Of a stretch of DNA of 64,000 nucleotides, positions 1,557 through 8,011 are shown piece by piece. Within the stretch, counting starts at the first letter, position 1. Every line of letters starts with the position of its first letter. A program made the position numbers and the translations under genes. This DNA comes from Microbacterium schleiferi (GTDB lineage: Bacteria; Actinomycetota; Actinomycetes; Actinomycetales; Microbacteriaceae), in assembly GCF_020781975.1 (NCBI RefSeq), contig NZ_JAJGNI010000008.1, forward strand, positions 1 to 64,000, written 5' to 3'. The notes below the pieces were generated by a model that saw only the letters and a list, made by a program, of their open reading frames with translations, searched no databases and was not told the DNA's origin.

Positions 1557-1587
1557 GGTGGCGTCCCTCTGAGTGGTGGAGTTTCTC
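1557..1587 (-). repeat. Outer inverted repeat of the IS256-like remnant
   Basis: This 31-nt stretch resembles 7199-7229. The first 11 nt are identical (GGTGGCGTCCC), and the rest shares a GTGG/GTGT-AGTTTC core. Here it lies just beyond the stop codon of the minus-strand IS256 transposase remnant. The other copy lies ahead of a plus-strand IS256 N-terminal fragment. Both read inward, as the two ends of an IS256-family element should. Which bases form the true tip is uncertain. Confidence 0.55.
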
Positions 1588-1615
1588 ATCACCGTGCGAG
1601 TTCAGCTTTGGTTGA

Positions 1616-1689
1616 TTATGCCGCAGCGAGTTCTGGGATTGCGACCTCCTCTTCGGTGGCGTCGAGGAGCTTCATAGAGTGTTCGCTGA
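1616..1689 (-). pseudogene. IS256-family transposase, extreme C-terminus (part 2 of split remnant)
   Basis: The minus strand encodes SEHSMKLLDATEEEV and a short tail, then TAA. It continues the reading frame that ends at 6437 on the far side of the IS3 insertion: removing the IS3 element and one CTGA copy rejoins RRYF with SEHSMK in frame. This is the C-terminal end of a mutator-type (IS256) DDE transposase. It is a non-functional remnant. Confidence 0.85.
1686..1689. repeat. Target site duplication CTGA, left copy
   Basis: CTGA directly abuts the left IS3 inverted repeat, and an identical CTGA abuts the right one at 6433-6436. Four-base duplications are within the usual range for IS3-family elements. 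Confidence 0.85.
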
Positions 1690-1712
1690 TGATTCGTCCT
1701 GGGTTTGGTTCC
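1690..1712 (+). repeat. IS3 left terminal inverted repeat (IRL)
   Basis: This is the reverse complement of 6410-6432 with two mismatches (offsets 8 and 18). It begins with TG, as most IS3-family ends do. Confidence 0.9.
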
Positions 1713-1734
1713 GCTTCTTTTGGGAGGATGAATC

Positions 1735-2049
1735 ATGCCCCGTCAGTTCCCGCCGGAGTTCCGGCAACGTGCGCTCAGGATGCTGGAGGAGGCGTTGCCT
1801 GAGCATGAGACCGAGTACGCCGCGATTCGTCATGTCGGCTCGAAGCTTGGAGTCGGACCGGAGACGTTGCGGAAATGGCGTCGCCGATCCGAGATCGACT
1901 CGGGTGCCCGTCCTGGCGTGACCAGCGAAGAGGCCGCGGAGATCAAGCGCCTCAAACGTGAGGTCGCCGAGTTGCGGCGCGCGAACGAGATTCTGCGAGC
2001 CGCGTCCGCGTTTTTCGCAGCGGAACTCGACCGCCCCACGACGAGATGA
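1735..2049 (+). CDS. IS3-family transposase OrfA
   Basis: The product is a 104-aa DNA-binding subunit of an IS3-type transposase. A helix-turn-helix covers about residues 8-50 (including GPETLRKWRR), followed by a leucine-zipper-like helix of about residues 65-95 (EIKRLKREVAELRRANEIL) used for multimerisation. A GGGAGGA Shine-Dalgarno lies just before ATG 1735, which supports this start. It overlaps orfB by the four bases ATGA. In this family OrfA alone represses, and an OrfAB fusion made by -1 frameshifting transposes. I do not see an A6G-type slippery run at the overlap. It is intact and could still be expressed. Confidence 0.93.
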   Translation: MPRQFPPEFRQRALRMLEEALPEHETEYAAIRHVGSKLGVGPETLRKWRRRSEIDSGARPGVTSEEAAEIKRLKREVAELRRANEILRAASAFFAAELDRPTTR

Positions 2050-2730
2050 TCCGGTTCATCAGTATGTTCCGGGAGCGTTTCGGGGTCGAGGCCATCTGCC
2101 GCACTCTGGGTGCGACAGAGTGTGGGTTCCTCACCGCCCGCGGATACCGGGCAGCGCAGACCAGGCCGCGATCCGCGCGGCGTCTGCGTGATGATCTTCT
2201 CGTGCCCGAGATCACCCGTCTGCATGCGGAGAACTACGGCGTCTACGGCGTCCGAAAGATGCATGCGCTGATGCGCCGGCAGGGCTGGACGATCGGTCGG
2301 GACCAGACTGGCCGGATCATGCGTCTGGCGGGTGTTGCGGGCGTGAAACGGTCGAAGAGAGCGTTCACGACCAAGGCCGACCCTGCCCAGCAACGCCCTG
2401 CCGACCTCGTGCAGCGTCGCTTCGACGCGCACGCGCCGTGCCGACTGTGGGTCGCGGACATCACATACGTCGCGACGTGGTCCGGGTTCGCGTATGTCGC
2501 GTTCGTGATCGATGTGTACTCGCGCCGCATCGTCGGGTGGAACGTCGCCGCCACGTTGAAGGCGGACATCCTGCCGCTGCAGGCGCTGAACATGGCTGCC
2601 TGGCAGGCCCGCGGCGACCTCACCGGACTGACGCACCACTCCGATCACGGGTCGAACTACATGTCGTTGGTCTACACCGATCGGATCGTCGAGCTCGGTG
2701 CAAAGCCCTCAACGGGAACAGTCGGCGACA
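2046..2730 (+). pseudogene. IS3-family transposase OrfB, N-terminal part (split by insertion)
   Basis: This is the catalytic subunit of the IS3 transposase (rve integrase fold). Residues 1-228 include the HTH_21-type region and two of three catalytic acids: Asp138 (VADITYV) and Asp200 (HHSDHGSNY). Homology stops after TGTVGD at 2729-2730. The reading frame then runs on through inserted DNA to a stop at 2867, adding unrelated residues. The catalytic Glu is on the other side of the inserted element (6189-6191). The gene is disrupted and almost certainly inactive. Confidence 0.93.
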
Positions 2731-2735
2731 CCCTC

Positions 2736-2753
2736 TTAACCGGTTATTCGACC
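2736..2753 (+). repeat. Left terminal inverted repeat of the Tn554-like element
   Basis: It begins TTAACCGG and matches the reverse complement of 6150-6167 at 14 of 18 positions. It contains a perfect 10-bp palindrome (TAACCGGTTA, 2737-2746). It is probably a recombinase-binding arm. Confidence 0.65.
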
Positions 2754-2829
2754 CGCGAGCCCAGGCGGCGACACGCCGGTGGGCGTCGCGTCCGTCGCGT
2801 GTGTGACGCACGGGTGCAACATGTGTCGC

Positions 2830-3918
2830 ATGACGGACAAGGAAGTCCTGCGGCTCGAGCAGCGTGACGGCGAGTGGGTGCTCGCCGGTGAGCACGCCGC
2901 CCGGTTCGCGCTGGTGGACGAGTACCTCGCGCATCTGCTGGATCGGAACTACTCGCCGGCGACGGTGAGGTCCTACGGGTATGACCTGCTCGCGTTCTGC
3001 CGCTGGCTGTCCGGGCAGAACCGCCCGCTTGAGGAGGTCACGACCGATGATCTCCTCGGATTCCTGCGGGCATGTCGTGAAGCGACCCTGCCAGGCAGGC
3101 CGGGCCCGAACGTCGTCGGGATGGATGGCCGCCGGCTGGACCGATACGCGGCGACGACGATCAACCGTCGGCTCGCGGCGATCTCAGGGCTGTTCACGTA
3201 TGCGGGACTGCGCGACCCGGCGAGGCGGAACCCGGTCCCGCGGGGCAGGGAAGCGCGCTGGCGGACGAGCGGGGAGCGGTCAGGGATGCTCGCTCACACC
3301 GTCCGGCGCCCGGTCGCGCGATCCGCGCTCAGGTTGCGGGAACCACGCCGGCTGCCGGTCGCACTGTCACCCCAGGACGCGGCGACGCTGGTGGGGAGTC
3401 TGCGGACCTGGCGGGATCGGGCGATCGCAGGGCTGATGCTGTGGTGCGGGCTGCGGTCGATGGAAGTCCTCGGCCTGCACGTGAAGGACGTCGACATCGG
3501 CGGCCGCTGGGTCACTGGCACCGGCAAGGGCGCGAAACAGCGCCGCGTCCCGCTGGACCCGGACGTCGCGTCGGTGATCGACGTCTATCTCCTCGCCGAA
3601 CGCCCCGAGTCAGACTCCGAGTTCCTGTTCCTCGTCGGCAAAGGCCCGAACCGCGGCGGCCCGTTGACGGCGGCAGGGTTGCGGACGGTGTTCCGCTACC
3701 ACCGGGGCCTGACCGGCGTGACCGGCGGGCACCCGCACGCGCTGCGTCACACGTTCGGAACAGTCCTCGCCGAGGCCGGCGTCGATCTCGCGGTGATGCA
3801 GGCCCTTCTCGGTCACGCGCATGTCGACACAACCGCCCGCTACGTCCACCTCGCTCCTGCTCACGTGAAAGCCCAGTTCGATGCGGCACGCGAACGCATC
3901 CGCTCTCAGCAGCGGTGA
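2830..3918 (+). CDS. tnpA: Tyrosine recombinase, TnpA-like
   Basis: This is a site-specific recombinase of the phage-integrase family, about 362 aa. The N-terminal SAM-like core-binding domain covers about residues 25-130 and the catalytic domain about 180-350. The catalytic set is complete: Arg209 (CGLRSMEVL), Lys233, His303-x-x-Arg306 (HALRH), His329 (LLGHAH) and Tyr338 (ARYVHL). It should cut and rejoin DNA together with TnpB. The start is uncertain: ATGs at 2821 and 2830 are both possible and neither has a clear Shine-Dalgarno. Its 3' end overlaps tnpB by 38 bp, implying coupled translation. Confidence 0.9.
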   Translation: MTDKEVLRLEQRDGEWVLAGEHAARFALVDEYLAHLLDRNYSPATVRSYGYDLLAFCRWLSGQNRPLEEVTTDDLLGFLRACREATLPGRPGPNVVGMDGRRLDRYAATTINRRLAAISGLFTYAGLRDPARRNPVPRGREARWRTSGERSGMLAHTVRRPVARSALRLREPRRLPVALSPQDAATLVGSLRTWRDRAIAGLMLWCGLRSMEVLGLHVKDVDIGGRWVTGTGKGAKQRRVPLDPDVASVIDVYLLAERPESDSEFLFLVGKGPNRGGPLTAAGLRTVFRYHRGLTGVTGGHPHALRHTFGTVLAEAGVDLAVMQALLGHAHVDTTARYVHLAPAHVKAQFDAARERIRSQQR

Positions 3919-5836
3919 CCCCGGGATCGCGTCGCTGCGAGGCGATGATCTCCGGGACGCGTATCTGCGTCACCTGACGGCGACCGGCCGAGGGAACCCG
4001 TCCTACGAGTGGGCTGCGCGACGGTTCTTCGAGTCCTGGCCGGACCCGCAGGACTGGGCGGCGACACCGCTTCAGCAGCGACTGTCGGCGGGGTCGGCAG
4101 CGCGTCCGGTGATCACGTTCCTGATGCTGCACGGCGGGTTGCGGCCGGGATACGACTACCTGCTTTCGAGGAAGCTGTCACCGCTCTGGCGGGAGATCCA
4201 GACCAGCCCGCTGCGGGCCGAGATCGACGGGTTCCTCGACGAGGCCGAACAGCTCGGGTTCACCGCCCGCACGCGGCTTGCGACAGGCTCCCAGGCGCCG
4301 ATCCGGCTGCTGATCCAGACGGGAAAGCCGATGCGACAACTCACCGTCGATGACCTTCAGGAGTTCGCCGCGGCCTGCCGGGAACGCGAGCACGCGACGG
4401 GGATCTCGCATCGCCACTACTTCTCGGCGATCAGCATGGCGCACATGGTGCTGTTCCATCTCGGCGTCCTCGATTCCCCGCCACGGACCGGCGGCCCGGT
4501 CCCTTACGAGGAGCGGCTCGCCGAGGTCTCCGCCCCGTTGCGGGCGCAGCTGGTCGGCTATCTGGAACGCAAACGCGCGACCTGCGACCGCAAGACGGTC
4601 TCGGCGATGGCGACACGGTTGAAGCACTTCGGGGTGTTCCTCACCGACACCGACCCGACACTCACGTCGGTGAGGGATCTGGATCGGCGACGTCACGTCG
4701 AACCGTTCCTCGCGTCGCTGGTCGACGCGATCAGCGACAAGGACGGCGCCCCGATCAGCATCGGGGACCGCAACCGGCGGGTCGTCGCGGTCGCGACGTT
4801 CCTCCGCGACATCACCGAATGGGGCTGGGACGCAGCGCCACCTCGGAAGGTGCTGTTCCGCGACGACATCCCCAAGCTCCCGCAGGTGCTGCCCCGCTAC
4901 CTCCCCATCGATGCCGACCGGCGACTCACCGCCGCTTTGACCGAGCATCCCGACAACGAGCTGGCCGCACTGGCGCTGCGGCTGCAACGCGCTTGCGGGC
5001 TGCGGATCGGGGAACTGCTCGACCTCGAGCTGGACTGCGTTCACGAGCTCGATGGGAACGGGGCATGGCTGAAGGTCCCGCTCGGCAAGCTCGCCACCGA
5101 ACGCATGGTCCCTCTCGATCCTGAGACTCTCGAGGTGATCGACCGGGTCACCCAGATCCGCTCCCACGGCAGACCACTCCCGCACCCCCGCTACCGGCGA
5201 CCCGCGCAGTTCCTGTTCACCTACCTCGGCCGCAGACTCACCCAGCAAGGCGTCCGCCGCGAACTCGATCACGCCACCGAGGTCGCCGGGCTCGGGCACG
5301 TCACCTCCCACCAGCTGCGACACACCTACGCGACCGCGCTGGTCAACGCCGGCGTCTCCCTGCAAGCCCTCATGGCCCTCCTCGGCCACCAGTCCGCGGA
5401 GATGAGCCTCCGCTACGGGCGCCTGTTCGACCACACCGTCCGCACTGAATACGAACGCGCCCTCGACCTCGCGAAACAGAACACCACCGCCCCCGCTGCC
5501 GGAGACACCGGCGGGCGCACCCAGCTGCCGCTCACGGCCATCACCGGCGGACGCGACTGGAAAGACGCCCCGCTGCTGAAGTCCCGCATGGCCGGCGGGT
5601 TCTGCCTCCGCGCCCCCGCGCAGGGAGCATGCAGCTACGCGAACATCTGCGAGCACTGCCCGTCCTACCGGTCCGAACCCTCCTCACTGCCGATCCTCGC
5701 CGCGCAACGCGTCGACGCCGACGCTCTCGCCCGCGACGCGGAACAACGAGGATGGATCGACGAGGCCGAACGCCACCAGAAGCTCATCGCCCGCCTCGAC
5801 GCGCTCATCGCCGACACGGAGACACAGACCGGATGA
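3881..5836 (+). CDS. tnpB: Tyrosine recombinase, TnpB-like, with C-terminal Cys cluster
   Basis: This is the second, larger phage-integrase-family recombinase, 651 aa. The catalytic residues are Arg375 (CGLRIGEL), His477 and Arg480 (HQLRH), His503 (LLGHQS) and Tyr512 (LRYGRL), all present. A long N-terminal region of about 340 residues precedes the catalytic domain. After it a cluster Cys575, Cys584, Cys590, Cys593 looks like a zinc-binding or finger-like tail, a feature known in TnpB-type partners of Tn554-like modules. It overlaps tnpA by 38 bp and tnpC by ATGA at 5833-5836, so the three proteins are probably made from one mRNA in fixed ratio. Confidence 0.9.
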   Translation: MRHANASALSSGDPGIASLRGDDLRDAYLRHLTATGRGNPSYEWAARRFFESWPDPQDWAATPLQQRLSAGSAARPVITFLMLHGGLRPGYDYLLSRKLSPLWREIQTSPLRAEIDGFLDEAEQLGFTARTRLATGSQAPIRLLIQTGKPMRQLTVDDLQEFAAACREREHATGISHRHYFSAISMAHMVLFHLGVLDSPPRTGGPVPYEERLAEVSAPLRAQLVGYLERKRATCDRKTVSAMATRLKHFGVFLTDTDPTLTSVRDLDRRRHVEPFLASLVDAISDKDGAPISIGDRNRRVVAVATFLRDITEWGWDAAPPRKVLFRDDIPKLPQVLPRYLPIDADRRLTAALTEHPDNELAALALRLQRACGLRIGELLDLELDCVHELDGNGAWLKVPLGKLATERMVPLDPETLEVIDRVTQIRSHGRPLPHPRYRRPAQFLFTYLGRRLTQQGVRRELDHATEVAGLGHVTSHQLRHTYATALVNAGVSLQALMALLGHQSAEMSLRYGRLFDHTVRTEYERALDLAKQNTTAPAAGDTGGRTQLPLTAITGGRDWKDAPLLKSRMAGGFCLRAPAQGACSYANICEHCPSYRSEPSSLPILAAQRVDADALARDAEQRGWIDEAERHQKLIARLDALIADTETQTG

Positions 5837-6120
5837 CCAGCACCACGCTGAACCAGATCGAACGAGCCTGCGCCGACCTCGCCCGAGACGGCCACCCGAT
5901 CACGATCGCCGCGGTCGCCGAGCACGCCGGAATCTCCCGGTCCACGATCTACCGCAACCCCGAACTCCGCGCCATCATCGAGCACCACCAGCAGACCGCG
6001 CCGGACGGCAACATCACCGCGATCACCGACGAACTCGCAACTCTCCGACAAGCCGTCCATACCCTCGCCGACACCGTCCGCCACCACGACGCGCAACTCC
6101 GCCGACTCACCGCCGACTGA
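5833..6120 (+). CDS. tnpC: Small HTH/coiled-coil protein, TnpC-like (DUF6262 type)
   Basis: This 95-aa protein is the third member of the recombinase operon. Residues about 20-45 form a helix-turn-helix (ITIAAVAEHAGISRSTIYRN), followed by a probable coiled coil (residues about 60-92, ELATLRQAVHTLADTV). Tn554-type TnpC proteins affect efficiency and orientation of insertion. The layout here is consistent with such an accessory role, but this is inferred from position and shape. The start is fixed by the ATGA overlap with tnpB. Confidence 0.8.
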   Translation: MTSTTLNQIERACADLARDGHPITIAAVAEHAGISRSTIYRNPELRAIIEHHQQTAPDGNITAITDELATLRQAVHTLADTVRHHDAQLRRLTAD

Positions 6121-6123
6121 CCG

Positions 6124-6167
6124 CATTACCCGGCCAAACCCAGCACCAAGGCCGATTAGCCGGATAA
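6124..6167 (+). repeat. Right end of the Tn554-like element: two CCGG boxes
   Basis: ATTACCCGG (6125-6133) and ATTAGCCGG (6155-6163) are direct copies about 30 nt apart. The outer one belongs to the 18-nt terminal inverted repeat 6150-6167 that pairs with 2736-2753. Such repeated boxes fit binding of two recombinases at arm and core positions. Confidence 0.55.
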
Positions 6168-6410
6168 AGCTACGACAACTCCCTCGCCGAGGCCGTCAAC
6201 GGGCTCTACAAGACCGAACTGATCCGCCGCCGAGGCCCGTGGCGCACGGTCGAGCAGGTCGAGCTCGCAACCCTCGAGTACGTGTGGTGGTGGAACAACG
6301 CGCGCCTGCACGGCGAGCTCGACTACCGCACCCCCGCCGAGATAGAGGCCGCGTACTACGCTGACCACGAAACCCCCGACCTAGCCACCGCTAGCCTCGG
6401 AAACCGATAG
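6168..6410 (+). pseudogene. IS3-family transposase OrfB, C-terminal part
   Basis: The frame resumes with SYDNSLAEAVNGLYKTEL and runs to TAG at 6408-6410. It carries the catalytic Glu (codon 6189-6191, LAEAV) and the conserved WWNNARLHG region of IS3 transposases. It directly continues 2046-2730 once the 3.4-kb insert is removed. It has no start codon of its own and is a disrupted gene part. Confidence 0.92.
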
Positions 6411-6432
6411 GAACAAAACCCAGGGCGAATCA
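6410..6432 (-). repeat. IS3 right terminal inverted repeat (IRR)
   Basis: It pairs with 1690-1712 at 21 of 23 positions and ends in CA. The orfB stop codon touches its inner edge. Confidence 0.9.
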
Positions 6433-6436
6433 CTGA
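6433..6436. repeat. Target site duplication CTGA, right copy
   Basis: It is identical to 1686-1689. On the minus strand it reads TCAG and forms part of the Phe-Ser codons of the interrupted IS256 transposase. Confidence 0.85.
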
Positions 6437-6573
6437 AGTAGCGGCGGTCGGCGCCGTCCCATTCGTCGTGTTGCTCGATGAGGACGTGCCCGGCGAGGCG
6501 CAGTAGCGCGGCCGGGTTGGGGAACGTGCCGACGACGTCGGTGCGACGTTTGATCTCCTTGTTCACTCGTTCG
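6437..6573 (-). pseudogene. IS256-family transposase, C-terminal region (part 1 of split remnant)
   Basis: The minus strand encodes [16 protein letters not shown], then [12 protein letters not shown] and [11 protein letters not shown]. This is the conserved C-terminal block of IS256/mutator transposases. It is cut at its 3' end by the IS3 insertion and continues at 1689-1616. Upstream homology stops before the usual NPLERVNKE block (about 6573), so the remnant is also truncated at its 5' side. Confidence 0.88.
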
Positions 6574-7198
6574 CGGGGGAGCGGTGGACCGTCACCGACA
6601 TGCCTACTCGGCTCCGCGAATCGGTCTGGTCGACAACCTCGGGAGAGCGCCGGCCCGCGGCGGCTGGACTCTACGGGTGGCGCTTTCAAGCGACCAACGC
6701 TGCGGGGTTGTCCCGGGTGTTTGACGTGTATGGCGGCGACGGTGGCTGGCACGTTCATCACTGCTACGACTGATCCGCTTGCCGGAGTCACGGGTGGCTT
6801 CAGCGGAACAATCACACCGTCGAGGCTGGGCGACGGGTATGTCGTTCCGATCCGTTCGAGACCGATCGAGGCATCGGATGAACCCGCGACGATCTACTTA
6901 TTCGCGGTGTCGACGAGGCCGGCGCCGTAGTCGAGATTGGGTGGCGTTCACGCGGGCGGCACCGTGCGATTCCGACCGCTGTCATCCTCAACGCCGTCAT
7001 CGCCTGGACCCGGCAATTGTCAGACATGCCCTAGTTCGATAAGACCTCGGCGCGACACCATGACGTTGCTCACATAACCCCCAGTAGCTTGCTGCGCTTC
7101 TGTCTATCAGGTGAAGCGATCGGGGTCATGTCGGCTCTTTGGCGGACACCTATCGACTGCAGTCCAGAACCTCCGACGATAGCGAGAATGCGGGACCG
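6574..7198. other. Unrecognised stretch between two IS256 fragments
   Basis: About 625 bp has no gene I can defend. Short open frames exist on the plus strand, for example one ending with QLSDMP before a TAG near 7032, but none shows a known motif or a good start. The stretch lies between truncated transposase pieces and is probably a patchwork of eroded mobile DNA. Confidence 0.5.
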
Positions 7199-7229
7199 GG
7201 TGGCGTCCCAGGGGTTGGTGTAGTTTCCC
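7199..7229 (+). repeat. IS256-like terminal inverted repeat, second copy
   Basis: It matches 1557-1587 (identical first 11 nt, shared AGTTTC core). It lies about 90 bp before the plus-strand IS256 N-terminal fragment, as expected for a left end. Confidence 0.55.
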
Positions 7230-7319
7230 GGCTCGAGTGTCACGTCGTTGACGTGGTGAGCCATCGTGCGATGGTCAGTGAGAACTGTCTAGGAATCTCA
7301 CGGAAGGACACAACGCACG

Positions 7320-7826
7320 ATGGCTCTTGACCAGTCTGCCCTCCTCGAGCTGCTCGGGGAACTGAAACTCACCGATGTCACGGACCGGATCCGGGTCGCG
7401 ACCGAGACGCTCTACCAGGAGCTGATCGACGCGGAAGCGGCCGCGTTCATCGGCGCCGCCCCGTATGAGCGCTCTGGCGCCCGCGTCGCGCAACGCAATG
7501 GCACCCGACCTCGACCGTTGCTGACAACGGCCGGCGAGCTTGATCTGCGGATCCCGAAGCTGCGGGTCGGGTCGTTCTTCCCGTCGCTGCTGGAACGCCG
7601 CCGCCGGGTCGACCAGGCGTTGTTCGCGGTGGTGATGGAGGCGTACGTCCACGGCGTCTCGACCCGCAAAGTCGATGATCTGGTGAAGGCGCTCGGCGCC
7701 GACACTGGCATCAGCAAGTCGGAGGTGTCGCGGATCTGCGCGAACCTCGACGAGGACGTTGCCGCGTTCCGGGGCCGGCCCCTCGCGGACACGACCTACC
7801 CGTACGTGTTCCTCGACGCGACATAC
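7320..7826 (+). pseudogene. IS256-family transposase, N-terminal fragment
   Basis: The N-terminal about 169 residues of a mutator-type transposase run from ATG 7320 (GGAAGGAC upstream) to FLDATY. Typical features are LYQELIDAEAAAFIGAAPYER, the RNGTRPR region, DLRIPKLR and SEVSRICANLDEDV, ending at the first catalytic Asp (FLDATY). At 7823-7826 the sequence switches to a different gene (the AAA ATPase tail). The reading frame continues to 8123 but encodes nothing IS256-like. It is truncated and inactive. Confidence 0.88.
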
Positions 7827-8011
7827 TCGACCCTGACGACTTCACCGACGCGCAAGCCATCGCCGCGATCGAACGCATCACCCGAGGCAACTTTCGCCTC
7901 CTCGAACGGCTCTTCCCTCAGATCAACCGGGTACTCAAGATCAACCAGCTCGACACCATCACCGACGACGTCATCGAAGCCGCCGCCAGCATCCTCGTCA
8001 TCGGCAATTAG
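7823..8011 (+). pseudogene. IstB/TniB-like AAA ATPase, C-terminal fragment
   Basis: Sixty-two codons without a start, including DPDDFTDAQAIAAIERITR and NFRLLERLFPQINRVLKIN, end at TAG 8009-8011. This resembles the C-terminal tail of AAA ATPases that partner DDE transposases (IstB, TniB or ExeA-like). It is in a different frame from the IS256 fragment ahead of it. About 45 bp after the stop the sequence joins an unrelated permease gene, so this may be the end of another insertion element. Confidence 0.65.

Follow-up and report, generated by a model that had tools for sequence, protein, structure and literature searches.

Where a mobile element lies inside another mobile element, the first question is whether the inner one arrived there by accident or was directed to it. 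Our analysis concerns a 64,000-nucleotide stretch of Microbacterium schleiferi (hereafter, the window; it lies on C33, one of the 34 contigs of a 3.0-Mb genome), in which a remnant of an IS256-family element encloses an IS3-family element, and the latter encloses a 3438-bp unit related to the transposon Tn554, which carries genes for two tyrosine recombinases, tnpA and tnpB, and a tnpC-like gene, and interrupts the IS3 transposase gene orfB. We conclude from sequence comparison, with a probability of roughly 85%, that this inner unit is a cargo-free actinobacterial Tn554-related transposon that integrates site-specifically into transposase genes. The window copy belongs to a lineage of transposons that occupy a fixed place in transposase genes and that extends beyond one genome.

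A fixed codon position in transposase genes

In the window, OrfB is broken seven codons before its catalytic Glu, with the junction 21 bp ahead of the Glu codon; because this residue follows the second Asp by 35 residues, it is the DD(35)E glutamate. We compared this junction across 81 loci, comprising the window, L001 from a plasmid search, and 79 loci (L002-L080) from a genome scan with TnpB. A right flank was considered readable when at least 24 nt were present to the right of the element, as was the case in 58 of the 81 loci. Glu is codon 8 after the junction in 54 of these 58 flanks (53 before the end of L057 was corrected), and in an alignment of 50 right flanks it forms the single nearly invariant column. 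Family models, whose sets overlap, assigned 37 of 50 right flanks to IS3, 31 to IS481 and 9 to IS21; for 46 left flanks the respective numbers were 29, 25 and 2. The Pfam domains rve_3 and rve_2 were found in 33 and 28 of the 50 right flanks, respectively. Left flanks are less informative, being short or rearranged in loci such as L015, L039, L056, L065, L125 and L130.

The same position was recovered from named plasmids, among which 12 records carry a TnpB of at least 58% identity; one was already in the set, and 10 of the other 11 were examined. In all 10 copies (58-60% identity) the right flank starts with xxDNxxxE, placing Glu at codon 8. Both flanks were readable in nine of them and the right flank only in L125, and two pairs of copies share their targets (L115/L124 and L116/L126). 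IS3-type right flanks total 51, representing 45 distinct targets at <90% identity, while 12 right flanks start with Pro and carry Glu at codon 8. Nested insertion sequences are common, and the window holds a second IS256 fragment, as would be expected if the nesting were a chance event in a region rich in mobile elements, which is how the initial annotation had treated the inner layer. However, in many genomes and in dozens of different targets, relatives break IS3 transposase genes between the same two codons, or other transposase genes at the corresponding point, and on account of this fixed codon position we rejected chance nesting, which is barely credible.

The type of target follows the phylogeny of the recombinase. 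In a TnpB tree of 81 rows with a midpoint root (13 rows unlabelled, L002 counted as IS3, and the ten named plasmid copies outside the tree), all 46 IS3-labelled rows fall in one side of 56 rows, which holds no IS21/IS481 labels, and all 11 IS21/IS481-labelled rows fall among the other 25. The IS21/IS481-type targets of this sister group are hit at the same codon. Locus L077 lies in an IS630 gene according to models of both flanks, L071 in an IS1634 gene according to its right flank only, and L066 has a left flank that fits an IS481 model, while models assigned no transposase family to L037, L079 and L080. A more distant group (36-38% identity), sampled as 7 of the 20 plasmid matches listed, has tnpB as the last gene before the right arm of the element. 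All seven interrupt an IS256 transposase gene at WSNNP / ERLNKE; one is inserted in the reverse orientation, and one is readable on the right side alone. These IS256 targets were confirmed by models on both flanks of L120 and one flank of L121, and the others were read by eye; the ER of ERLNKE presumably contains the catalytic Glu of IS256.

This pattern points, with fair probability, to a whole lineage of tyrosine-recombinase transposons that are hyperparasites of insertion sequences, each clade reading the DNA that encodes a DDE catalytic motif. Its targets would be IS3 elements, IS21/IS481 elements at the same codon, IS256 elements at ERLNKE and perhaps IS630 and IS1634 elements. If so, each landing would disable a transposase and thus act as a natural brake on insertion sequences, and a target both mobile and conserved would let the lineage spread from one actinobacterial family to another.

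In two Microbacterium genomes (L097:164-1270 and L101:161-1231), the same IS3 motif was also observed to contain an IS110-family element, about 1.35 kb long and inserted after the Asp codon of SYD/SFD; it was identified by an NCBIfam model in L097 and by the similarity of its protein in L101. Should the hyperparasite interpretation be correct, the presence of this unrelated, RNA-guided type of element at the motif would suggest a shared landing site.

Independent movement and target recognition

Comparison of nearly or fully identical copies indicates that the unit moves by itself, with exact ends, because such copies sit in differing flanks. Three copies in Salinispora mooreana are 100% identical over 3438 bp, although the flanks of L016 match neither L017 nor L019, whose own flanks have 29 and 245 nt in common. 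Likewise, L004 (Nocardioides) and L005 (a metagenome-assembled genome of Propionibacteriaceae) are 100% identical over 3443 bp in two bacterial families; their left flanks share only a 99-nt match at 74%, and their right flanks none. The nearest copies of the window's element are in Microbacterium, and between the window and L014, 2469 of 2471 shared bases are equal, while the left flanks have no match. These comparisons bear on the possibility that the unit is a passenger that was copied once into an ancestral IS3 element and then inherited with it. The terminal repeats of the IS3 element in the window are retained, and the nest as a whole might be mobilized by the transposase of a related IS3; yet identical elements occur in differing or unrelated insertion sequence genes, and their identity does not extend past the ends of the element. 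We therefore rejected inheritance with one ancestral IS3 as the main route and consider it very improbable.

The ends of the unit consist of a 6-bp left tip, ACCCTC (2730-2735), followed by a left 13-bp arm, TTAACCGGTTATT (2736-2748), and of a right 13-bp arm, ATTAGCCGGATAA (6155-6167), which is an imperfect inverted repeat of the left one; in most relatives, the left arm is TTAACCGGCTAAT. The tip is the presumed strand-exchange region. Among 41 IS3-type copies with both sides known, it reads TGCCTG in 17, TCCCTC in 14, TGCCCC in four and TGCCTA in three, the remaining three tips being singles that include the window's ACCCTC. In Pro-type copies the left 6 bp start with CC, like the Pro codon of the target, in 7 of 7 cases. 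All three Salinispora copies have TCCCTC on the left, while their right 6 bp vary between targets, and such a constant left tip in differing targets indicates that the tip belongs to the element. Two loci have unusual right ends: L057:4445-4488 contains the right-arm sequence twice, with a spacing of about 30 bp, perhaps a tandem or re-used end, and L023:2130-2235 contains two junctions of right arm and target, separated by 85 bp that include a few N and each followed by an SYDN motif, which may be an assembly effect.

From these junctions we infer a route of movement. TnpA and TnpB, together with TnpC, would join the ends into a circular intermediate, ATTAGCCGGATAA - 6 bp - TTAACCGGCTAAT, in which two inverted 13-bp arms surround 6 bp, the shape that would be expected of a tyrosine-recombinase core site. 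The circle would then recombine with an IS3 OrfB site, ...GGNNNN | NNNNNN GAYAAYG, the right half of which encodes the (S/C/A)xDN motif, with the catalytic Glu codon 21 bp beyond the junction. With a presumed order of strand exchange, the 6 bp of the element would stay at the new left junction and those of the target at the new right one; no duplication would be made, and OrfB would be cut in two, silencing the insertion sequence. The two recombinases are presumably active and the element possibly copied replicatively. An alternative is a cut-and-paste movement like that of Tn916 with donor coupling bases, or one in which the left 6 bp of the donor are copied into the new right end, as in the strand-biased circularizing elements (SE). 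Both kinds of movement use a 6-bp exchange region (PMC10214605, in its accessible parts), but identical copies have the same left 6 bp whatever their target, so these bases are not derived from a donor, and such a movement appears improbable.

How the target is recognized is harder to decide. IS3-type sites share GG at -6/-5, and most have GAYAAYG at +7 to +13. Because this pattern also reflects coding conservation, it does not by itself reveal what is read by the enzyme; reading of the DNA, presumably by one of the element's own proteins, is favoured because L002 uses the same kind of site on the wrong strand. When whole genomes were searched irrespective of gene, the minimal site pattern gave 19 matches in the window's genome against 9 for a reversed control, and 51 against 21 in Salinispora, two of the 51 being the element's own junctions.

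Such frequencies lend some plausibility to survivorship, in which the element inserts at many GAYAAYG-like sites and only copies in dispensable transposase genes persist. The minimal site is available 19 and 51 times in the two genomes, and in L002 a DNA site of similar sequence is occupied in a different gene, in antisense. Intergenic or non-essential sites would, however, be expected often under this explanation, whereas only L037, L079 and L080 among 68 right flanks are unassigned to a transposase gene, and the type of target tracks the recombinase tree. We consider survivorship unlikely as the explanation, although it may sharpen the target pattern.

Several observations weigh against site-specific integration into transposase genes. 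The minimal DNA motif is too common to be the whole explanation of the preference, and was rejected as such. Codon 8 does not encode Glu in loci L071, L077, L079 and L080, while in L037 it does and yet the locus fits no transposase model. L002, a close relative of the window's element that we counted among the 51 IS3-type flanks, is inserted in antisense into an IS481 gene, both of its flanks matching IS481 on the opposite strand. Finally, 23 of the 81 loci have no usable right flank, and no movement was observed.

As regards distribution, a TnpB relative at E 1e-40 was present in 9 of 396 genomes drawn from the phylum, the window's own included (L085, from this draw, is apparently a record of L035). 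A search of phage records for relatives of TnpB gave no match at E 1e-20, and a second copy of the inner unit was not found in the window's genome at the sensitivity used.

Architecture of the nested locus

The initial annotation had proposed a nest of three elements, inserted in the order IS256, IS3, recombinase unit. All three layers were confirmed with slightly corrected coordinates, and uninterrupted relatives of both outer layers support the order. The nest is flanked by an amidohydrolase gene (125-1525) and ordinary chromosomal genes. Its outer layer is a C-terminal remnant of a Mutator-type transposase on the minus strand, as alignment to copies in the genus indicates; a 133-bp aligned piece at 1557-1689 holds the C-terminal end, SEHSMKLLDATEEEVAIPELAAA-stop, with a terminal repeat, and the rest of the remnant, ending in ...RRYF and delimited by alignment to other copies, occupies 6433-6590, where it is cut off at about 6590. 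Eleven copies besides the window's own were fetched and five aligned; in all five, the two pieces are contiguous and overlap by the 4-bp CTGA, so that rejoining restores the IS256 sequence as had been anticipated. The stop at about 6590 falls near the ERVNKE codons of the remnant, close to the insertion point of the TnpC-less group elsewhere. We considered it as the scar of a former insertion and set this aside, as no element arm is seen there; the proximity may be a coincidence.

The nest had been extended to 7229, which does not hold, since this end runs into another IS256-family fragment on the plus strand (7196-7827), oriented opposite to the nest remnant, and membership of 6591-7229 in the nest was not borne out. 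The frame of this second fragment is broken after about residue 171; it ends abruptly and shows 85-89% identity to other Microbacterium copies.

The middle layer (1690-6432, plus strand) is bounded by a left terminal repeat (1690-1712) and a right one on the minus strand (6410-6432) that match in 21 of 23 positions, and by CTGA duplications at 1686-1689 and 6433-6436, both as originally described. Its assignment to the IS3 family draws on these repeats, the helix-turn-helix of OrfA (1735-2049, plus strand; HTH_Tnp_1), the overlapping OrfB with DD(35)E and the short duplication, whose 4 bp lie within the 3-5 bp typical of the family. On the plus strand, OrfB is divided into a first part ending in ...STGTVGD (2046-2729) and a last part starting with SYDNSLAE (6168-6410), which match adjoining stretches of the NCBIfam model NF033516 (162-310 and 311-369). 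Rejoining them, as the initial annotation had suggested, yields a single open frame of 308 codons that reads through GTVGD-SYDNSLAE. Relatives of this IS3 element were surveyed at 19 loci in Microbacterium (L096-L114): the halves abut with 0 bases gained or lost in 16; another insert separates them in two (L097 and L101), and L107 has no right-hand match. A further IS3-type fragment in the window's genome, L082 (G000:C30:14371-14875), is 69% identical to part of this element.

The inner transposon spans 2730-6167 on the plus strand; the right end proposed earlier was correct, while the left end moved from 2731 to 2730. In the window alone the junction has a one-base ambiguity, an A being present at both 2730 and 6168, and we assigned this base to the element because of copies elsewhere whose right flank starts with another base. 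The rejoined OrfB and the empty sites indicate that no target duplication accompanies the insertion. Three genes in a row, mutually overlapping, are the only ones between the ends, all on the plus strand: tnpA, the shorter recombinase gene (2779-3918, 379 codons; PF00589), tnpB, the longer one (3881-5836, 651 aa; PF00589), and the tnpC-like gene (5833-6120, 95 aa), which encodes a DUF6262 protein (PF19776, E 1e-8). The true start of tnpA may be the ATG at 2830, as relatives align from about residue 14-24. The R..HxxR..Y signatures, including the tyrosine, were read by eye as GLRS/HALRH/...ARY in TnpA and GLRIGE/HQLRH/...LRY in TnpB, and the link between DUF6262 and TnpC draws on gene order and PMC3414803, independently of direct comparison. 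Across 51 loci with both ends called (a set that omits L036 and L057), element length is 3129-3520 bp, and this uniformity indicates that cargo is absent as a rule.

Relation to known transposons

Among site-specific elements, some are known to target tRNA genes and others conserved housekeeping genes. The unit described here appears to have found its safe harbour in sequence that encodes the active site of other mobile elements. Such sequence is both abundant and conserved, it is itself mobile, and the host can do without it; targeting mobile genes may benefit the element. Clade-wise targets suggest how such recombinases switch target while diverging and provide a paired set of recombinases and sites, and the uniform, cargo-free form of 3.1-3.5 kb is convenient for laboratory tests. 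These results also raise the question of whether such elements keep the insertion sequences of Actinobacteria in check.

Tn554 of Staphylococcus integrates at att554 in radC and carries resistance cargo, whereas the window unit lies in IS3 OrfB and is without cargo. Adjacent recombinase genes with their signatures, a TnpC-like gene and the lack of a duplication place the unit among the Tn554-related transposons. TnpB-like matches in Enterococcus and Staphylococcus plasmids reach 23-26% identity. According to the accessible parts of PMC10214605, Staphylococcus and Enterococcus are hosts of Tn554-related elements, and Tn554 shares with the window unit the order tnpA-tnpB-tnpC, target specificity, a 6-bp footprint and the absence of target duplication.

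The same source describes SE as resembling our unit in having two tyrosine recombinases, a TnpC-like helper, a 6-bp exchange region and target choice, and reports that in E. coli one of them inserted into the insJ gene of IS3 (PMC10214605). However, SE carry a fourth gene, Tfp (intA-tfp-intB-srap), whereas the window unit has three genes and no Tfp, and SE place the left 6 bp of the donor at the new right end, whereas here these bases stay with the element. RIT elements, as outlined in the available portions of PMC3414803, PMC8138268 and PMC10214605, are likewise small elements with sets of tyrosine recombinases, and one is reported to lie inside a transposase gene of a Tn6049-like transposon (PMC3414803); they have three tyrosine recombinases, unlike the window unit with two and a DUF6262 gene, which has no recombinase match.

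We found no account of a transposase-gene target for the Tn554-related group in the open full-text literature, subscription journals being mostly outside this search, and no mention of it in the accessible parts of PMC2991359, PMC2516522, PMC10494377, PMC4816395 and PMC8138268. The closest description is that of Van Houdt et al. 2012 (PMC3414803), which, in the portion available, defined actinobacterial Tn554-related transposons as Famint27/33 and Famint41/36 in chromosomes and plasmids of Mycobacterium, Rhodococcus and Arthrobacter. These have, like the window unit, a short and a long tyrosine recombinase in the same direction and mostly a TnpC-like third gene, and one plasmid listed there, pBD2 (NC_005073), carries our locus L119. 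That portion suggests several similar attB sites and names none, leaving the insertion site open. Our analysis supplies a target for this group: in contrast to the 2012 description, the site found here is transposase genes, at a fixed position of the catalytic motif.

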